DNA of 45,937 nt from Fibrobacter succinogenes (lineage in GTDB: Bacteria > Fibrobacterota > Fibrobacteria > Fibrobacterales > Fibrobacteraceae), in contig CACWPM010000025.1 in the NCBI GenBank assembly GCA_902762795.1, positions 1 to 45,937 on the forward strand, given 5' to 3'. The notes beneath the pieces are model-generated. The model was given only the letters and a program-made list of their open reading frames with translations, ran no database searches and had not been told where the DNA came from. Below, piece after piece: positions 19,521 through 41,627 of this stretch. Position 1 is the first letter of the stretch, and every line of letters starts with the position of its first letter. Made by a program: the position numbers and the translations under genes.

Positions 19521-19621
19521 TTAAAAAATTAGATACTCTCCCCTCTAATTGCAAATTACAAATAAATTAAACACGTGACTTACGCGACCCCGCGTCGCAG
19601 TTGAGTTTCACGCGATTGACG

Positions 19622-19682
19622 CTAACATTGTTAGTGAATTTCTAACAATGTTAGACTCTCTAATTTTGTTAGAGAGTCTAAC
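19622..19682. promoter_or_regulatory. Array of seven alternating CTAAC / GTTAG half-sites
   Basis: Half-sites start at 19622 (CTAAC), 19630 (GTTAG), 19642 (CTAAC), 19650 (GTTAG), 19660 (CTAAT), 19669 (GTTAG) and 19678 (CTAAC), i.e. 8-12 bases apart. The last four also form a 14-bp-arm inverted repeat (GTTAGACTCTCTAA with its complement, 5-base loop). It lies upstream of the DUF6110/ATPase operon and just past the flavodoxin stop. An operator cluster for the DtxR-like regulator is my preferred reading. A terminator for flavodoxin is the alternative, but there is no T-run. Confidence 0.55.
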
Positions 19683-19709
19683 ATTTCATGGATCATCGAA
19701 ACTCAACAA

Positions 19710-20138
19710 TTACGAAAGCGCAAGAACCTTGCCGAGTTCACGGCACTTTTCCTTGCCAGCGTCATCCGGAGCGCCTTCAATCGCAAGCGGATCATCAGCA
19801 AGAACAAGCCCTGCATTTGCAGCATCTTCTCTCCACGGATTCATCCATTCACCACCGCCCCAGCCGTAAGAGCCGAACAAAACAACCTTTTTACCAGAAA
19901 TCTGCGTCTTCAGCTGATCATAAAGCGGCTGAAATTCGCTATCTTCAAGTTCTTCCGCACCCATTGCCGGGCAACCCAAAGCAAACTTGTCAAATTCCTG
20001 AGCCTTATCTACACTAAAATCAGACGTATTGAAAAGCGTCACTTCAGCGCCAGCGGCACTTGCGCCCGCGACAACTTCATTTGCCATGACTTCGGTATTT
20101 CCCGTTCCAGTCCAATAAATAACAGCAATTTTATTCAT
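19710..20138 (-). CDS. Short-chain flavodoxin
   Basis: A 142-residue protein with the FMN phosphate loop WTGTGNTEVMA (about residues 9-19), the second FMN loop GCPAMGAEELED and the third YGWGGGEWM. Length and motifs match short-chain flavodoxins, cytoplasmic electron carriers that commonly replace ferredoxin under low iron. It starts 25 bases after the DUF3793 stop, with AAAAGGAT upstream, so the two form one operon. Its place in the iron block, downstream of a TTAG-N6-CTAA site, supports iron-responsive expression. Confidence 0.9.
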   Translation of the reverse strand: MNKIAVIYWTGTGNTEVMANEVVAGASAAGAEVTLFNTSDFSVDKAQEFDKFALGCPAMGAEELEDSEFQPLYDQLKTQISGKKVVLFGSYGWGGGEWMNPWREDAANAGLVLADDPLAIEGAPDDAGKEKCRELGKVLALS

Positions 20139-20163: not shown

Positions 20164-20724
20164 TCAACTTGCTACAGTCAATTCCTCCAAAGAATCGCCT
20201 TGTTCAAATCGTTCATTGAAAATTTTGTGACATTTTTTGTAAACTTCAAATATATGCATTGAATTCGGCACATCGTTATAAACCTTCCAGCACCCAATCA
20301 TCTTGTAATTTTTTCCGCCATAGGCGATAAAATCCTTAACATCATCTAAAGGATATCCTAAAAACACACCCACTTCATGTGGGAAACAGACAGAATGCAT
20401 CATGCGTACTTGAAAAAAATTCAATAAGGATTCTACATCGTATTTGGCATACCCAAACCCTTTCAAAAAATTTCTTACTTCACAACAATTTCCCAAATTC
20501 TGCAAAGCACTATTTCGATAAACATAAATAAAATAACGCCCGCATCGTTCTGCAACAACGCGAGCATTAACTCCCTTAGGATTCAACATTTGATTCCAGC
20601 GAGCCAAAATTTTGCAAAGCACAACACCATTTGCACTATCAAGGCAAAAAAGATTACCCAATTTAAGCCCCGCAAGTGTCGGGGCACATTGCCTAACTAA
20701 ACGGAAATCAAAATTTTTATTCAT
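20164..20724 (-). CDS. DUF3793-family protein
   Basis: I chose the ATG at 20724 (186 residues), starting MNKNFDFRLVRQCAPTLAGLKLGNLF, the conserved beginning of DUF3793 proteins. A longer frame from 20781 would be translated out of a terminator stem and is unlikely. The body has scattered conserved-looking Cys residues and a central GVFLGYPLDDVKDFI block. The function of DUF3793 is unknown; from memory it often accompanies flavodoxin and Feo genes in anaerobes. The leader contains an RNA-like element and a terminator only 30 bases before the ATG, so expression may be attenuated. Confidence 0.75.
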   Translation of the reverse strand: MNKNFDFRLVRQCAPTLAGLKLGNLFCLDSANGVVLCKILARWNQMLNPKGVNARVVAERCGRYFIYVYRNSALQNLGNCCEVRNFLKGFGYAKYDVESLLNFFQVRMMHSVCFPHEVGVFLGYPLDDVKDFIAYGGKNYKMIGCWKVYNDVPNSMHIFEVYKKCHKIFNERFEQGDSLEELTVAS

Positions 20725-20754: not shown

Positions 20755-20787
20755 AAAAATCCCGCCTGTAGCCTCCGCCACGGCGGG
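20755..20787 (-). terminator. Terminator / attenuator in the DUF3793 leader
   Basis: CCCGCC (20761-20766) pairs with GGCGGG (20782-20787) and is followed on the minus strand by ATTTTT. It directly abuts structured element copy 1 and ends 31 bases before the DUF3793 ATG, so it would stop leader transcripts unless bypassed. No gene separates it from the promoter-proximal region. Confidence 0.75.
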
Positions 20788-20849
20788 ATAACCTATCTAG
20801 TATATATGAGGTAACGAATTCCTATACACTAGCAGAGATTCTATGGCAA
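20788..20849 (-). ncRNA. Candidate structured RNA element, copy 1 (leader of DUF3793-flavodoxin)
   Basis: Read on the minus strand it begins TTGCCATAGAATCTCTG. An outer stem AAUCU/AGGUU (20836-20840 with 20790-20794) encloses a 10-bp stem CUAGUGUAUA/UAUAUACUAG (20823-20832 with 20797-20806). It runs straight into a terminator. Copy 2 at 21002-21062 is about 90% identical. Its two differences inside the long stem keep pairing, one by a compensatory change. This looks like a cis-regulatory RNA but matches no riboswitch I recognise. Confidence 0.55.
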
Positions 20850-20856
20850 TTATCTC

Positions 20857-20884
20857 TCTGGATATTATTTTAGATAATTCCAGA
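20857..20884. promoter_or_regulatory. Inverted repeat upstream of DUF3793 operon
   Basis: TCTGGATATTAT and ATAATTCCAGA pair with a single bulge around the loop TTTAG. It lies directly upstream of RNA element copy 1 on the minus strand, either as part of the leader RNA or as an operator. Confidence 0.4.
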
Positions 20885-20923
20885 ATATTTTGCCACTCCA
20901 ATTAGACTTAAAGCAATCCAAAA

Positions 20924-20937
20924 TTAGATTAATCTAA
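20924..20937. promoter_or_regulatory. DtxR-like operator, TTAG-N6-CTAA
   Basis: The perfect 14-base palindrome TTAGATTAATCTAA lies 200 bases upstream of the DUF3793 start. Spacing matches the sites at 22379-22392 and 26225-26272. The 13-mer ACTCCAATTAGAC lies beside it at 20895-20907 and is shared with the MMPL exporter promoter. Confidence 0.55.
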
Positions 20938-20965
20938 CAATACTTATAAAATATCATTCATTTAC

Positions 20966-21001
20966 ATAAAAAAATTCCCGCCTTAGAAAAACTATGGCGG
21001 G
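20966..21001 (-). terminator. Rho-independent terminator after the porin
   Basis: CCCGCC (20977-20982) pairs with GGCGGG (20996-21001), extended by imperfect TAG/CTA pairing, and is followed on the minus strand by seven T. It follows structured element copy 2 without a gap. Confidence 0.85.
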
Positions 21002-21062
21002 ATAACCTATCCAGCATATATGAGGTAACGTTTCTATACGCTAGCAGAGGTTCTATGGCAAA
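21002..21062 (-). ncRNA. Candidate structured RNA element, copy 2 (3' end of porin transcript)
   Basis: Same architecture as copy 1: outer stem AACCU/AGGUU (21048-21052 with 21004-21008) and a 10-bp stem CUAGCGUAUA/UAUAUGCUGG (21035-21044 with 21011-21020). It begins 2-3 bases after the porin stop and ends in a terminator. Compared with copy 1, a C-G pair replaces U-A and a U-G wobble replaces U-A in the long stem, so the fold is preserved. Confidence 0.5.
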
Positions 21063-21064
21063 CT

Positions 21065-22186
21065 CTAGAATGCGAAGACAGTTTCAAGGCCGAGTTTGAG
21101 ACCTGCATCATCCGCATCATCGCCAACAGGGACATTCACCATCGCAAAGCCCGTGAATTCGAGGCCATCAATCGGAGTTGCATAAGCGCGAAGGCCTACG
21201 TTAAACGTAGAAACGTCATCGTTCTTCTGCAATGTATTCGTATGGTATTCGAGAGGCAGTCCAAGAGCAAACGCATCGGAAATGCGCACGCTCGGTTCAC
21301 CATAGGCAAAGAAGTATTCCGGAATTTCTTCGCCATGAACAGTTGGATTCTTCTTGTCAATGATGGCATAGAACACAGAGCCCTTGACATTCACCTTACC
21401 CAAATCCAAAGAAGGTTCGGCAAGGAACGCGTTCGTTGCCTTAGGGGCATCTTCATCAAGAGCATCTACATGCAAACCATACACGAAGTGGAACGCAAAC
21501 GCATCTATCTTCAAGTTCGCATCGAGTCCCGCATGAAGTTCATTATGCTTCGCTTCCTGATAAGACTTGTAATCGACAAACGGACGCAAGGAACTTTCAC
21601 CAAGACCAAGTTCATAGGCAAGATGGATATCGTAAGCAACGCCTACGCAAGTTTCTTCACCATCTTCTTCAACGCACACTTTATTGTCGTTGTCACCGCG
21701 ACCAAAGCCGATCCCAAAAACAAGGCCATTATAGTCAAGTTCTACTCCCCGGATATCGTGTTCAGCCATTCCAGCAGCGTTATCTGCCGGGTCATCGTAA
21801 TTATAATAATTGAGGAAAGCGCCTTCCGAGAAGGTCAAGTCACCAAACTTCACGACAAATTTATCGCTGTGAGTGTATTGGACAAACGCTCCATTATAAA
21901 TTGCAGTCGGGTCAGTCGTTTCTCCGTCAGCCTCCAACTGTACGGATGCAGACCACTTGTCATTGAATTTCACATCAACATTCAAATCAAAAGTCGATGC
22001 ATACTCATGGCTCTTGATGTCTTCATTGATAACATCGCCCGTATAGGCGTCAAATTCAACTTCGCCCGAGAACTTGACTTCCGGGCCCTTTGCTTCACCG
22101 GCAGCTTCATCAGCGAAAACTGGAGCGGCAAGGAAAGTAACGGCTGCAATGCCAAACACTAGGTTAGAGGTAAAACGAGTCTTCAT
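21065..22186 (-). CDS. Outer membrane beta-barrel porin-like protein
   Basis: A 373-residue protein with signal peptide 1-25 (cleavage APVFA-DE). Its 12-16 or so amphipathic beta strands alternate with acidic loops (KVCVEEDGEETCVG, GDNDNK), and it ends in Phe (ETVFAF), the usual barrel-assembly signal. It resembles Fibrobacter-type outer membrane porins, but no specific family is certain. Acidic loops and a DtxR-like box upstream (22379-22397) suggest a role in cation or iron supply. A short hairpin (AACACT-ccgtc-AGTGTT, 22225-22241) lies in its leader. Confidence 0.75.
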   Translation of the reverse strand: MKTRFTSNLVFGIAAVTFLAAPVFADEAAGEAKGPEVKFSGEVEFDAYTGDVINEDIKSHEYASTFDLNVDVKFNDKWSASVQLEADGETTDPTAIYNGAFVQYTHSDKFVVKFGDLTFSEGAFLNYYNYDDPADNAAGMAEHDIRGVELDYNGLVFGIGFGRGDNDNKVCVEEDGEETCVGVAYDIHLAYELGLGESSLRPFVDYKSYQEAKHNELHAGLDANLKIDAFAFHFVYGLHVDALDEDAPKATNAFLAEPSLDLGKVNVKGSVFYAIIDKKNPTVHGEEIPEYFFAYGEPSVRISDAFALGLPLEYHTNTLQKNDDVSTFNVGLRAYATPIDGLEFTGFAMVNVPVGDDADDAGLKLGLETVFAF

Positions 22187-22378: not shown

Positions 22379-22397
22379 TTAGTTTAGTCTAATTTAA
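22379..22397. promoter_or_regulatory. DtxR/IdeR-like iron box upstream of porin
   Basis: TTAGTTTAGTCTAATTTAA matches the IdeR/DtxR-type 19-mer TTAGGTTAGSCTAACCTAA at 15 of 19 positions (consensus quoted from memory), including both TTAG and CTAA. It sits in the 281-base gap between feoB and the porin, which also holds the feoB terminator and the porin leader hairpin. Confidence 0.6.
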
Positions 22398-22467: not shown

Positions 22468-25400
22468 TTAGTCTTCGAAACGCCTTTTCTTATTAGCGTT
22501 CAAACCAAAGAGTTTGAGGAACACGAACGTAGCCACAAGCACAATGATCGAACATACAATCCAGAATACATCGCCTCCCACCGGGACCTGATAAAGGAGT
22601 ACCGCCACAGACCATGCAAGAACGGTCTGTACCACAGCCATCAACACACCAAGACCAAGCCCGATTTCACGCACCACGACGCCCATCGCCGCAAGGCACG
22701 GCACATAGAGCAGGATGAAGATGAGGAATGCAAACACCTGCCAGTTAAATCCATCGACCGGGTTTCCGTTCTTGTCCGGGTTGTGGAAGTAAGAACGGAG
22801 ATTTTCGTAGATATCAGCAGTTTCGCTCAGGTCACCTTCTTCGAGAGCGCCGATTTCATCTTCGTTCAGCGTGAGACCAGCGGCAGCGAGCTTCGCAAAG
22901 ACTTCTTCGCGAGCCTTGTCGGCACCTTCATCTTCGCTGAAGGTCTCGATAGAAGCATATTCTTCGCAAGTAATCGCCTTTGCAGCAAGCACCTTGTCAA
23001 GAGTTTCCTTCTTAAGTTCGGCAGCATTCTGGGCTTCGAGTTCGCCAGAGGTTCCGAGAATGTCCGTGAGGGAACCAAAGACTTCACCCAGATTTTCTGG
23101 AATCGTGCCAAGGGCTTCCTTGAATGCACCGAGAATGTCCGGCGCACCGCCTTCTTCCTCTTCTTCGGCAGGGCATTCGTCCACACCAGCGATGAGAGGC
23201 TTTTCTTCGGCAGGGGCTTCTGCAGATTCTGTGGCCGGTTCAGCTGCAGCGCTGTCTGCAACAGCATTAGCGCTATCTGCGACAGCAGAGTCAGCAGCGA
23301 CTACATCACTTCTCTCGTCTTTCGTCTCTCGTCTTTCGTCTGCAATGGGGCGTTGCGGGGTGTCCCCGCTAGAAGGGGTAGCGACCGACTCGGCGGGCGC
23401 GAGGGGAAGGCCTTCCCCACTATTACCCACACTCTCGTCTCTCGTCTCTCGTCTTTGGACATTCGGCTCGGTCATGCCCAACTTCGTTGGTCGCGACTCT
23501 CGCCTTAATTGGTTGTCGTCTGATGCATCGCCAGGACCTGCCATGGAGTACAAGGAGTTCATCGTTCCAATCACAGCTTCCTTAGCGAGAAGGCCCGTGA
23601 ACAACGACACAGAAGCCGGCCAGTTGTTCGATTCCACACCGAACGGTTCAAAAATCGGAGTGATTGCCTTACCAATTGCGGAGAGCAGGCTGTTTTCGGA
23701 ATCGCCATTACCCGCGGTAAATTCGCTTTCCGTCTGGACCTTAGATTCGTCAATCACGACACCTTCGGGGAGCGGGACTTCCTTTTCGTCCTGCACCATC
23801 GCGTAGCCCTCTTCGGACTTCACGATTTCAGTCTTTTCGCCGTTGATTTCCGTATAAAGTTTATCGACAAAGCCAAAGCTGTTGAGGAAGCCGAGAACAG
23901 CAACCGCAATCGTAATCACCTTACCGGCACGGATAACATAATCACGCAAACGGAGCCAGGAATGAATCATGAGAGACTTGAATTTCGGCAGGTGGTATGG
24001 CGGCAACTCCATTACAAAGTTGCTCGCCTCGCCAACAAACAAGGATCTACGAAGAATCAATCCATACACGATTGCAAAAAGAACACCCGCAAGGTAGAGC
24101 GCAAACACAACCGTCCCCGCCTGCGTTCCGAAGAATGCAGCCGCAAACAGCGCATACACCGGGAGGCGAGCGCCGCAGCTCATGAACGGCACAAGGAAAA
24201 TCGTGAGGAAACGTTCACGCTTGGATTCGAGCACACGGGAACCCATAATGCCCGGCACGCCGCAGCCAAAGCCCACCATCATCGGCACGAATGCACGCCC
24301 CGGCAGCCCGAGAAAGCGCATAAAGCGGTCCGCGACAAACGCCGCACGCGCCATGTAGCCAGAGTCTTCCAGGAACGAAAGGCAGAGGAACATGAAGAAG
24401 ATGACCGGGATGAACGTCGAAACCGTCTGGATACCGGCACCGATACCATCCGCGAGAATGGCAGATACAAAGCCCGGAGCATGGAACACGTCCGTGAGCA
24501 AGTAACCAAGACCATCCACGAAGATAGCGCCAAACAGCACGTCAAAGAAATCGATGAACGCACTGCCAATCGTCACTGCAACCCAGAACACCAAATACAT
24601 CACCAAGAGGAAAATCGGGAGCGAAGCCCAACGATTGAGCAAAACAGAATCCAGCTTGTCCGACCAAGTTCTCTTTGTACGGTTCGAAAGAATCGTCTTG
24701 CTTGCAATTTCGTGCGCCATGCTGTAGCGGGAATCCGCCATTGCAAATTCGCTTTCTTCGCCAAGAATGGCAGTCACTTCAGCCTTATTAATCTGGACTT
24801 TGGCTTCTGCAAATTTATCCGCATAGCTCTTTTCGTTGCCCAAGTACATGAGCGAAACCCAGCGGGCATCCGTATCCAAAAGCTTTGCAACCGGAGCAAC
24901 CTTCGGTTTCAAATACTCGATAGCGGCTTCAACCTTCTCGCCGTAATCAATCGCCTTGGGCTTCATCTTCTTGCCCGCGATAACATGCGCCATCTGGCTG
25001 ATGAAATTCGTGATGCTCCTTTCATTCACGGCTGAAAGCGGAATCACCGGCACACCGAAACGTTCCGCAAGGATATCCAAGTCCAAATGCAGGCCGCGCT
25101 TTTCAGAAATGTCGATCATGTTCGCCGCAATCACCATCGGGATTTGCATATCGACAAGTTGCGTCGTCAAGAACAAATTGCGTTCGATATTCGAAGCATC
25201 AATAATATTGATAATTAGGTCGGCCTCGCGAGTGAGCAAGTAATCGACAGCGGCACGTTCGTCTTCGGCATTGGCAAAGAGCGCATAAGTACCCGGCAAG
25301 TCCACAACGCGGATATGCTGGTCGCCAATTTCAAAAAAACCTTCTTTCTTTTCGACAGTCACGCCCGGCCAGTTACCAACACTCTGGCGAGCGCCCGTAA

Positions 25401-25473
25401 GAGCATTAAATAGAGCCGTTTTACCGCAGTTCGGGTTACCGGCAATGGCAATAGTAAAAAGCTTCGGAGCCAT
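22468..25473 (-). CDS. feoB: Ferrous iron transporter FeoB with enlarged repeat-derived loop
   Basis: This 1001-residue protein is about 200 longer than typical FeoB. The N-terminal G domain has GNPNCGKTALFN (G1), DLPGTYAL (G3) and NMID (G4). A helical GDI-like domain and the Gate/nucleoside-recognition membrane regions follow (about 270-560, then 600-640 and 905-990). It imports Fe(II) across the inner membrane. The extra length lies in a loop after KEAVIGTMNSLYSM: residues about 651-726 are translated from repeat DNA (RRETRDES ... ERRETKDERS), followed by an Ala/Glu-rich stretch. Its ATG overlaps the feoA stop (TAATG), so translation is coupled. Confidence 0.95.
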   Translation of the reverse strand: MAPKLFTIAIAGNPNCGKTALFNALTGARQSVGNWPGVTVEKKEGFFEIGDQHIRVVDLPGTYALFANAEDERAAVDYLLTREADLIINIIDASNIERNLFLTTQLVDMQIPMVIAANMIDISEKRGLHLDLDILAERFGVPVIPLSAVNERSITNFISQMAHVIAGKKMKPKAIDYGEKVEAAIEYLKPKVAPVAKLLDTDARWVSLMYLGNEKSYADKFAEAKVQINKAEVTAILGEESEFAMADSRYSMAHEIASKTILSNRTKRTWSDKLDSVLLNRWASLPIFLLVMYLVFWVAVTIGSAFIDFFDVLFGAIFVDGLGYLLTDVFHAPGFVSAILADGIGAGIQTVSTFIPVIFFMFLCLSFLEDSGYMARAAFVADRFMRFLGLPGRAFVPMMVGFGCGVPGIMGSRVLESKRERFLTIFLVPFMSCGARLPVYALFAAAFFGTQAGTVVFALYLAGVLFAIVYGLILRRSLFVGEASNFVMELPPYHLPKFKSLMIHSWLRLRDYVIRAGKVITIAVAVLGFLNSFGFVDKLYTEINGEKTEIVKSEEGYAMVQDEKEVPLPEGVVIDESKVQTESEFTAGNGDSENSLLSAIGKAITPIFEPFGVESNNWPASVSLFTGLLAKEAVIGTMNSLYSMAGPGDASDDNQLRRESRPTKLGMTEPNVQRRETRDESVGNSGEGLPLAPAESVATPSSGDTPQRPIADERRETKDERSDVVAADSAVADSANAVADSAAAEPATESAEAPAEEKPLIAGVDECPAEEEEEGGAPDILGAFKEALGTIPENLGEVFGSLTDILGTSGELEAQNAAELKKETLDKVLAAKAITCEEYASIETFSEDEGADKAREEVFAKLAAAGLTLNEDEIGALEEGDLSETADIYENLRSYFHNPDKNGNPVDGFNWQVFAFLIFILLYVPCLAAMGVVVREIGLGLGVLMAVVQTVLAWSVAVLLYQVPVGGDVFWIVCSIIVLVATFVFLKLFGLNANKKRRFED
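23296..23520. repeat. Repeat DNA translated in frame inside feoB
   Basis: Two blocks of TCTCGTCTTTCGTCTC-like tandem heptamers (23313-23341 and 23433-23457) flank a segment with GC-rich symmetry (GGGGTGTCCCCGC; GGGGAAGGCCTTCCCC at 23401-23416). These look like intergenic repeat material rather than FeoB coding sequence, yet the frame stays open throughout. Confidence 0.6.
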
Positions 25474-25757
25474 TACACCCTCTTCAATTTAAGAACGTTC
25501 GCTTCTTGTCTGCGAAGCGACAAACGGTACGACAAAACACTGACTTCAATCGGATCCCCGAGAGGCGCCACCTGCAAGACTTCCAGCGTCACGCCACGTA
25601 CAAGCCCCATCGACAAGAGCTTGGACTTGTAGCGGGCATCGCCCTCGTTGTAGCCGACAATTTCAACCTTGTCGCCACGCTTGAGATCCGAAAATTTCGG
25701 TTCCAAATCCCATTTTTTAGTTTGCGACTTGCCGCCGCAACCACAATTGCAACCCAT
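25473..25757 (-). CDS. feoA: FeoA with Cys-rich N-terminal tail
   Basis: A 94-residue SH3-like FeoA protein (core about 22-94, DLKRGDKVEIVGYNEGDARYKSKLLSMGLVRG). It assists FeoB at the inner membrane. The first ten residues, MGCNCGCGGK, hold three Cys in a CxCxC-type cluster that could bind metal or an Fe-S cluster; such a tail is also found as a separate FeoB-associated Cys-rich peptide. It sits between the DtxR-family gene (2 bases away) and feoB (1-base overlap), all one operon. Confidence 0.92.
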   Translation of the reverse strand: MGCNCGCGGKSQTKKWDLEPKFSDLKRGDKVEIVGYNEGDARYKSKLLSMGLVRGVTLEVLQVAPLGDPIEVSVLSYRLSLRRQEANVLKLKRV

Positions 25758-25759
25758 TT

Positions 25760-26188
25760 TTATTTCCTTTTTTCGCCTTTTACATTTTTCTTCACGACGG
25801 CGTTCGCGTTATTTTTCTTCATAAATTCTTCAATCGTAGCAAGCGTTTCCGCCGAAAGGATGTGTTCCATACTACAAGCATCCTTGTCCGCAATCGCTTC
25901 AGAAACACCCAGACGAATCAAGAATCCCTTGAGGAGAATATGGCGATTCAATACATCGGCGGCCGCTTTGCGACCTTCTTCCGTGAGCTCCACTCCACTG
26001 TAAGGTTCTTGCGTCACAAGCCCAAGCTTTTTAAGTTCGAGAATAGCCTTTGCCACGGATGGCATTTTGACGGACAGAGCCGCCGCAATATCCTTGACAC
26101 GGGCAATTCCGTTCGCCAAGCGAAGCATGTGCACCATTTCCAGATAGTCTTCAAGACTCTGGCTGAGCTTCAAGTGATTGTTTTCCAT
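25760..26188 (-). CDS. DtxR/MntR-family metal-dependent repressor
   Basis: A 142-residue protein with a winged-helix N-terminal domain (LEDYLEMVHMLRLANGIARVKDIAAALSVKMPSVAKAILELKKLGLV) and a dimerisation/metal domain (about 75-125) with the His/Glu/Cys-bearing block ADKDACSMEHILSAET. It lacks the C-terminal SH3 domain of full-length DtxR, as MntR does, and FeoA next door is itself SH3-like. It leads the feoAB operon and probably represses it with Fe(II) as co-repressor. Palindromes at 26214-26272 directly upstream are likely autoregulatory sites. Confidence 0.88.
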   Translation of the reverse strand: MENNHLKLSQSLEDYLEMVHMLRLANGIARVKDIAAALSVKMPSVAKAILELKKLGLVTQEPYSGVELTEEGRKAAADVLNRHILLKGFLIRLGVSEAIADKDACSMEHILSAETLATIEEFMKKNNANAVVKKNVKGEKRK

Positions 26189-26213: not shown

Positions 26214-26272
26214 GTCTAATTTTATTAGACATGACTAAATTTAATAAGCCTAGACTAATTAGTCAAGGCTAA
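26214..26272 (-). promoter_or_regulatory. Cluster of DtxR-like operators upstream of the DtxR-feoAB operon
   Basis: Contains GTCTAAT-ttt-ATTAGAC (26214-26230), TTAG-ACATGA-CTAA (26225-26238), the palindrome GACTAATTAGTC (26253-26264) and TTAG-TCAAGG-CTAA (26259-26272). They overlap 26-84 bases upstream of the regulator ATG, where promoter elements are expected. Confidence 0.65.
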
Positions 26273-41344: not shown

Positions 41345-41374
41345 ACAACCCGTGGCGCAAAGCGCCCGTTGTGC
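41345..41374 (-). promoter_or_regulatory. Expression-platform hairpin next to the btuB start
   Basis: On the minus strand, ACAAC-g-GGCGC pairs with GCGCC-acg-GGTTGT around TTT, between the B12 box and the GTG start. It is well placed to hide the translation start when the riboswitch is bound. There is no T-run, which argues for translational control. Confidence 0.6.
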
Positions 41375-41588
41375 CTTACAGTTCTTCTGACTCGGGAATC
41401 ACTCTACATCCAGCCCCTTCACACCCGCCTTTGCAGAACGGAAGCCGACCTGCGACGAGCATTGGTTTATGCTGGTTTCGTCCTCCCTTACAGCGGCGAG
41501 ACCGTTCCCGGCTTTCACGGGATTCTCTTATATCGCATTCTTGGCGAACGCAATACAGCGTTTTACCGCATAAGGCATTACCTATGAA
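41374..41588 (-). promoter_or_regulatory. Cobalamin riboswitch
   Basis: On the minus strand the conserved core reads GAGAATCCCGTGAAAGCC, then GGGAACGGTCTCGCCGCTGTAAGGG, matching the GGxGAAxxCC ... CGCCxCTGTAA pattern of cobalamin riboswitches. A variable arm follows, and the B12-box equivalent GAGTCAGAAGAACTGTAAGG lies at 41374-41393. It fills most of the 328-base gap between the DMT transporter and btuB. The 5' boundary is estimated. Confidence 0.9.
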
Positions 41589-41627
41589 AAATATAGTAAA
41601 CAATTCGGGGCATTGTCACCCCATGTC

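Follow-up and report, generated by a model that had tools for sequence, protein, structure and literature searches.

A conserved structured RNA at the iron locus of Fibrobacter as a candidate iron-sparing small RNA

RyhB and PrrF are small RNAs (sRNAs) that act in iron starvation to bring down iron-sulfur enzymes, among them aconitase and complex I; they depend on Fur and Hfq and are not known to have a C-rich hairpin loop. In Staphylococcus, the iron-sparing sRNA IsrR pairs with the Shine-Dalgarno regions of mRNAs for iron-containing enzymes (PMC9410917). FsrA of Bacillus subtilis is cited in the same article as an iron-sparing RNA that binds Shine-Dalgarno sequences through a C-rich motif and needs Fbp chaperones (PMC9410917). 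Here, a window of 45,937 nucleotides from Fibrobacter succinogenes (the whole stretch of DNA that was analysed) was investigated for an RNA-like element that occurs twice within an iron locus. Fibrobacter is a major rumen cellulose degrader, and a literature search brought up no titles that deal with sRNAs or riboswitches in Fibrobacter itself. The locus is laid out as follows.

19710-20138, minus strand: flavodoxin gene (PF00258)
20164-20721, minus strand: DUF3793 gene (PF12672, E 1.9e-52)
20755-20788, minus strand: intrinsic terminator of copy B of the element (CCCGCC..GGCGGG and a T tract)
20782-20849, minus strand: copy B (made up of the 5' tail TTGCCATAG, an outer and an inner stem, the latter of 10 bp, a loop containing GTTACCTC, and a 3' tail running into CCCGCC)
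20808-20815, minus strand: loop GUUACCUC of copy B, the candidate seed; the identical 8 bases lie at 21022-21029 in copy A
20867-20874, minus strand: promoter-like -10 of copy B (TCTAAAAT)
20924-20937: DtxR-type palindrome TTAGATTAATCTAA upstream of copy B
20968-21002, minus strand: intrinsic terminator of copy A and the porin mRNA (GC-rich hairpin and T tract)
20996-21061, minus strand: copy A, beginning 3 bases past the porin stop (21065)
21065-22186, minus strand: porin-like outer-membrane gene whose 3' UTR carries the element (matching no Pfam family; "porin" is a label kept from a first-pass annotation)
22379-22392: DtxR-type palindrome upstream of the porin gene
22468-25473, minus strand: feoB
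25473-25757, minus strand: feoA
25760-26188, minus strand: DtxR-family iron-dependent repressor gene
26225-26272: three DtxR-type boxes upstream of dtxR-feoA-feoB

The first-pass annotation, made from the letters of the window, had described two minus-strand elements of about 90% identity, each running directly into a GC-rich terminator, one before DUF3793 and the other after the porin stop. All of this was borne out. The copies agreed in 61 of 68 alignment columns with a 2-base indel (about 90% identity over a ~67-base element), both continued into a hairpin with a T tract, and the terminator of copy B ended about 34 bases before the DUF3793 ATG (20721). As a repeat, the pair was far beyond chance (BLAST E = 4e-19, within-genome search), and BLAST and covariance-model searches of the genome returned exactly these two copies, both at the iron locus, with feoB, feoA and the repressor gene upstream of them on the same strand. 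The pair-preserving differences reported between the copies (C-G/U-A, U-G/U-A, and C to U opposite G) were likewise confirmed. The loop complement TGAGGTAAC is present on the plus strand at 20807-20815 and 21021-21029. When each copy was folded with its own terminator, it was more stable than shuffled sequences (z = -3.25 and -4.07). The annotation had proposed an outer 5-bp and an inner 10-bp stem; the inner one appeared in the minimum-energy folds of both copies, and the outer one folded in copy A only, its place in copy B being taken by neighbouring pairing, which marks it as the weaker part. A search of Rfam 15 with the element returned no family above the gathering threshold, and at a relaxed E-value only chance matches.

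The TTAGN6CTAA boxes of the locus fit a DtxR-type regulon. Across the window's own clade (clade 1, the window and 14 other loci), such a box was located at -86 to -89 before the element in all 15 loci, and TCTAAAAT at -24 to -26 in 13 of them; this box sits about 65-75 bases ahead of the presumed transcript start. More broadly, the palindromes at 20924-20937, 22379-22392 and 26225-26272 appear to mark the iron regulon of the genus. Short GTTAGA/CTAAC repeats between the flavodoxin gene and a P-type ATPase gene (19600-19700, minus strand) are possibly more iron boxes or a terminator. Elsewhere in the window, a cobalamin riboswitch is encoded at 41360-41590 on the minus strand (RF00174, 72.5 bits).

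A covariance-model search, which the first-pass annotation had put forward as a check, was carried out with a model built first from the two window copies and then refined with 20 sequences. It placed the element in about 29 Fibrobacter-family genomes at good scores, nearly always once per genome and always within the iron locus (the dtxR-feoA-feoB-porin block or its split parts). Weaker matches in G034, G030 and G029 proved genuine but divergent members once their sequence was read, and two further members, in G038 and G039, were recovered solely by reading porin tails. Two weak matches (G035:C34 and G008:C38) were left out because their flanking sequence is not the iron locus. Twenty-two sequences were aligned to the covariance model. 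In this alignment, 98.7% of the cells were paired and seven of the 15 pairs carried compensatory, both-side changes; none of 500 shuffles reached any of five pairing measures, and sliding the pairing partners lowered pairing to 25-47%. A plain MAFFT alignment gave the same stems. Since the covariation exceeds both the shuffled and the slid controls and the stems recur in the plain alignment, the structure is real, and a conserved structured RNA at this locus is a near certainty. Scattered copies, which the annotation had named as evidence against its reading, were not seen. Its proposal of an undescribed RNA linked to iron genes was supported by the covariation, the Rfam result and the DtxR-type boxes.

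The sequences fell into two clear subgroups that share their outer parts (TGCCATA, AACCTC, and at the far end CCCGCC) and the loop GUUACCUC and differ in their stems. This loop was kept in 21 of the 22 aligned members, with GUUACUUC in the remaining one, while the stem sequence changed around it. A further set, group 3, has a wholly different stem and again a C/U-rich loop (UCUCCU, UUUCCUU or CUCUCCUCC); the terminator is kept, as is the 5' tail in most members.

Placement of the element differed among these lineages. Clade 1 follows the order dtxR-feoA-feoB-porin, plain terminator, iron box, -10-like TCTAAAAT, element, its terminator, DUF3793 and flavodoxin. Its plain post-porin terminator mostly retains the element's outer letters (TTGCCATAGGATGAAAATCCCGC) without the hairpin, for example at L037:6886-6908, L040:6202-6224 and L041:6142-6164, where TTGCCATAG survives alone. 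In two clade-1 genomes (G086, G072), the element stays beside DUF3793 and the porin is on a different contig that lacks it, and in G075 the porin, also on another contig, retains a hairpin-less relic. Clade 2, which includes one other genus (G108), carries a single copy directly past the porin stop. DUF3793 comes next in five of its genomes (G028, G051, G053, G055, G058), where an iron box separates its ATG from the element, and is not nearby in G047, G049, G050, G052 and G108. In group 3 (G029, G030, G034, G038, G039 and a second contig of G084), the element also follows a porin stop, with no DUF3793 behind it in the first five. Wherever it follows the porin (copy A, clade 2, group 3), the element starts 3-45 bases past the stop codon and has its terminator in common with the mRNA. 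Being found without DUF3793 and, in G086 and G072, without an adjacent porin, the element is an independent unit. Of all the genomes read, only that of the window has the full element at both places. Trees of porin, FeoB and DUF3793 placed the window inside clade 1, and copy A is therefore either an old copy that was kept or one that was re-copied later. The G084 assembly holds a clade-1 element on contig C20 and two DUF3793 genes. Its contig C32 (L122), which may be a contaminating contig, has a group-3 element behind a porin with 54% identity. Porin paralogues that lack the element often carry TTACCTCGCATAATGCGC directly past the stop, which has UUACCUC in common with the loop, and then an unrelated terminator (L133, L137, L139, L142, L143, L146, L148, L151 and L157).

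The position directly past the porin stop looks ancestral, and the element has a strong fold beside a terminator. Both features would suit a stability element, in which hairpin and terminator protect the porin mRNA and were later re-used at the 5' end of the DUF3793 mRNA, without any action in trans. Such an element would need neither a nearly invariant loop (21/22) on a stem that turns over nor the promoter-like site and iron box of its own that it has in clade 1, and we consider this explanation unlikely.

The first-pass annotation had raised the possibility of an attenuating riboswitch, a hairpin in cis that senses a metal or a flavin and controls read-through into DUF3793-flavodoxin. Fifteen clade-1 loci do have the element and its terminator downstream of a promoter-like site and about 30-40 bases ahead of the DUF3793 ATG. 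Against this, ten genomes have the element with no DUF3793 behind it (five in clade 2, five in group 3), and the leader position expected of a riboswitch in all lineages gives way to a place 3' of the porin in clade 2 and group 3. Where DUF3793 does follow in clade 2, the iron box separates it from the element; in G055 and G051, both read by eye, a promoter-like -35/-10 pair lies there too (TTGACC-17-TAATCT in G051), with its -10 inside the iron box. The element is also a single long hairpin that is conserved in the loop and has neither a junction nor a conserved pocket, and inspection of the alignment and of the folds revealed no conserved strand farther upstream that could pair with the terminator arm and act as an antiterminator. 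With no leader position in clade 2 and group 3, a constant terminator that lacks a competing strand, and a single hairpin, the riboswitch reading is unsupported; the element is very probably not a riboswitch, and attenuation of DUF3793-flavodoxin is improbable. Some leader role is possible in clade 1, because DUF3793 there closely follows the terminator (about 35 bases) with no obvious promoter of its own. Pairing of the loop in cis with the DUF3793 ribosome site was considered and dropped, the match being only 4-5 bases (ACCU/AGGU) and absent from the clade-2 sequences read.

Binding of a stem-loop by aconitase is known, and a hairpin with a conserved loop inside an iron locus could similarly be the binding site of a protein such as an aconitase-type iron sensor. 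The loop, however, is not the CAGUGN of the iron-responsive element, and no conserved C bulge occurs at the right place. Its sequence shifts among the groups yet stays C/U-rich, a pattern that suits base pairing better, and protein binding is slightly less probable still than attenuation. A mobile terminator repeat, the other possibility raised in the first-pass annotation, has the two copies of the window in its favour but can practically be dismissed, as the window genome has just these two and other genomes one locus each rather than scattered copies. Separately, TTGCCATA...CCCGCC was examined as a general Fibrobacter terminator motif and rejected, with two unrelated exact matches in the window's own genome vs. 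one for a reversed-pattern control.

We lean towards the element being the body of a terminator-bounded small regulatory RNA in the DtxR-type iron regulon, working like FsrA, IsrR and RyhB. As judged from comparative sequence data, action in trans as an sRNA is itself probable, and an iron-sparing role is put forward more tentatively. The RNA would be roughly 100-110 nt long and consist of a 5' tail, the long hairpin with its C/U-rich loop, and the intrinsic terminator. In clade 2 and group 3, the porin mRNA, driven from its iron box, would either release this RNA or carry it as its 3' end. In clade 1, the RNA would have been set behind a promoter of its own, beside an iron box between porin and DUF3793, with the window genome keeping both placements. 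Under iron shortage, the RNA would accumulate, and the loop GUUACCUC, being single-stranded and assisted by the 5' AACCUC, would pair with the Shine-Dalgarno sequences of iron-rich enzymes and block their translation. Candidate targets are the complex I genes nuoB and nuoH and aconitase, and in clade 2 also IlvD and the dtxR mRNA. An iron-sparing response of this kind would complement induction of the iron-free flavodoxin encoded next door.

The loop GUUACCUC was among the best-conserved unpaired parts of the element and is an anti-Shine-Dalgarno sequence; taken together with the 5' strand AACCUC, it looks like the 16S rRNA anti-Shine-Dalgarno. Targets were searched for as the loop complement GAGGTAAC 0-9 bases from an ATG in nine element genomes, and matches that start real genes were kept, with the gene family checked for NuoB, NuoH, aconitase and IlvD. 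Recurrent matches were nuoB, nuoH and aconitase, and in clade 2 also nuoI, ilvD and dtxR. Genes of these kinds are classic targets of iron-sparing RNAs. Pairing was perfect over 8-11 bases (nuoB, nuoH, acn, ilvD), and duplex energies were -13 to -17 kcal/mol for the targets vs. a median of -5.1 for 34 window genes. In clade-2 genomes G051 and G055 (L055), the ribosome site of the dtxR mRNA is a full complement of the loop (GAGGTAACAATG), and pairing there would close a feedback circuit.

A check of 30 genomes compared those with and without the GUUACCUC loop. The perfect complement was present at the nuoB Shine-Dalgarno in 15 of 19 genomes with the loop vs. four of nine without, and at acn in 11 of 16 vs. 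two of eight. For nuoH, the site occurred in 18 of 18 genomes with the loop (the one in G108 lying at a start farther upstream than that aligned) and in eight of nine congeners without it. Genome-wide, GAGGTAAC preceded an ATG 177 times vs. 103 for the control in the nine element genomes; nine genomes that lack the element gave 130 vs. 83. Because the sites also occur without the loop and the genome-wide excess is alike without the element, the target sites may not depend on the RNA, and co-occurrence of seed and target was set aside as too weak to prove targeting. The list of targets was drawn up post hoc, and the nuo genes seem to belong to a single operon. These Shine-Dalgarno sequences are in part a feature of the lineage, and the targets are a hypothesis for which the matches are suggestive only.

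We tentatively describe the element as an undescribed Fibrobacterota family of iron-sparing sRNAs under a DtxR-type regulator, which may have been born in the porin 3' UTR and become free-standing in one clade, with both states in the window genome and a loop that may target complex I, aconitase and IlvD. If so, the C-rich loop that masks the ribosome sites of Fe-S enzymes arose again in another phylum, here linked to a regulator of the DtxR type and not of the Fur type, and the window's clade and clade 2 would represent two stages from a 3'-UTR RNA to an independent gene.

Compared with sRNAs derived from mRNA 3' ends (reviewed in PMC9438474), copy A and the elements of clade 2 and group 3 are alike in starting 3-45 bases past a stop codon and using the mRNA's terminator, whereas the clade-1 element differs in having a promoter-like site of its own. 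IsrR is similar in its C-rich single-stranded hairpin loops, the C-rich stretch 5' of a hairpin, the intrinsic terminator and the iron-regulator boxes upstream (PMC9410917). It differs in having three hairpins under Fur, where the Fibrobacter element has one hairpin and DtxR-type boxes and, in part of the genus, lies in the 3' UTR of a porin-like gene; no sequence similarity to IsrR was noticed in a comparison made without alignment. The locus of FsrA is unlike that of the Fibrobacter element, and the element differs from RyhB and PrrF in matching no Rfam family. We propose that the Fibrobacter element is unrelated to FsrA, IsrR and RyhB, though it would work alike.
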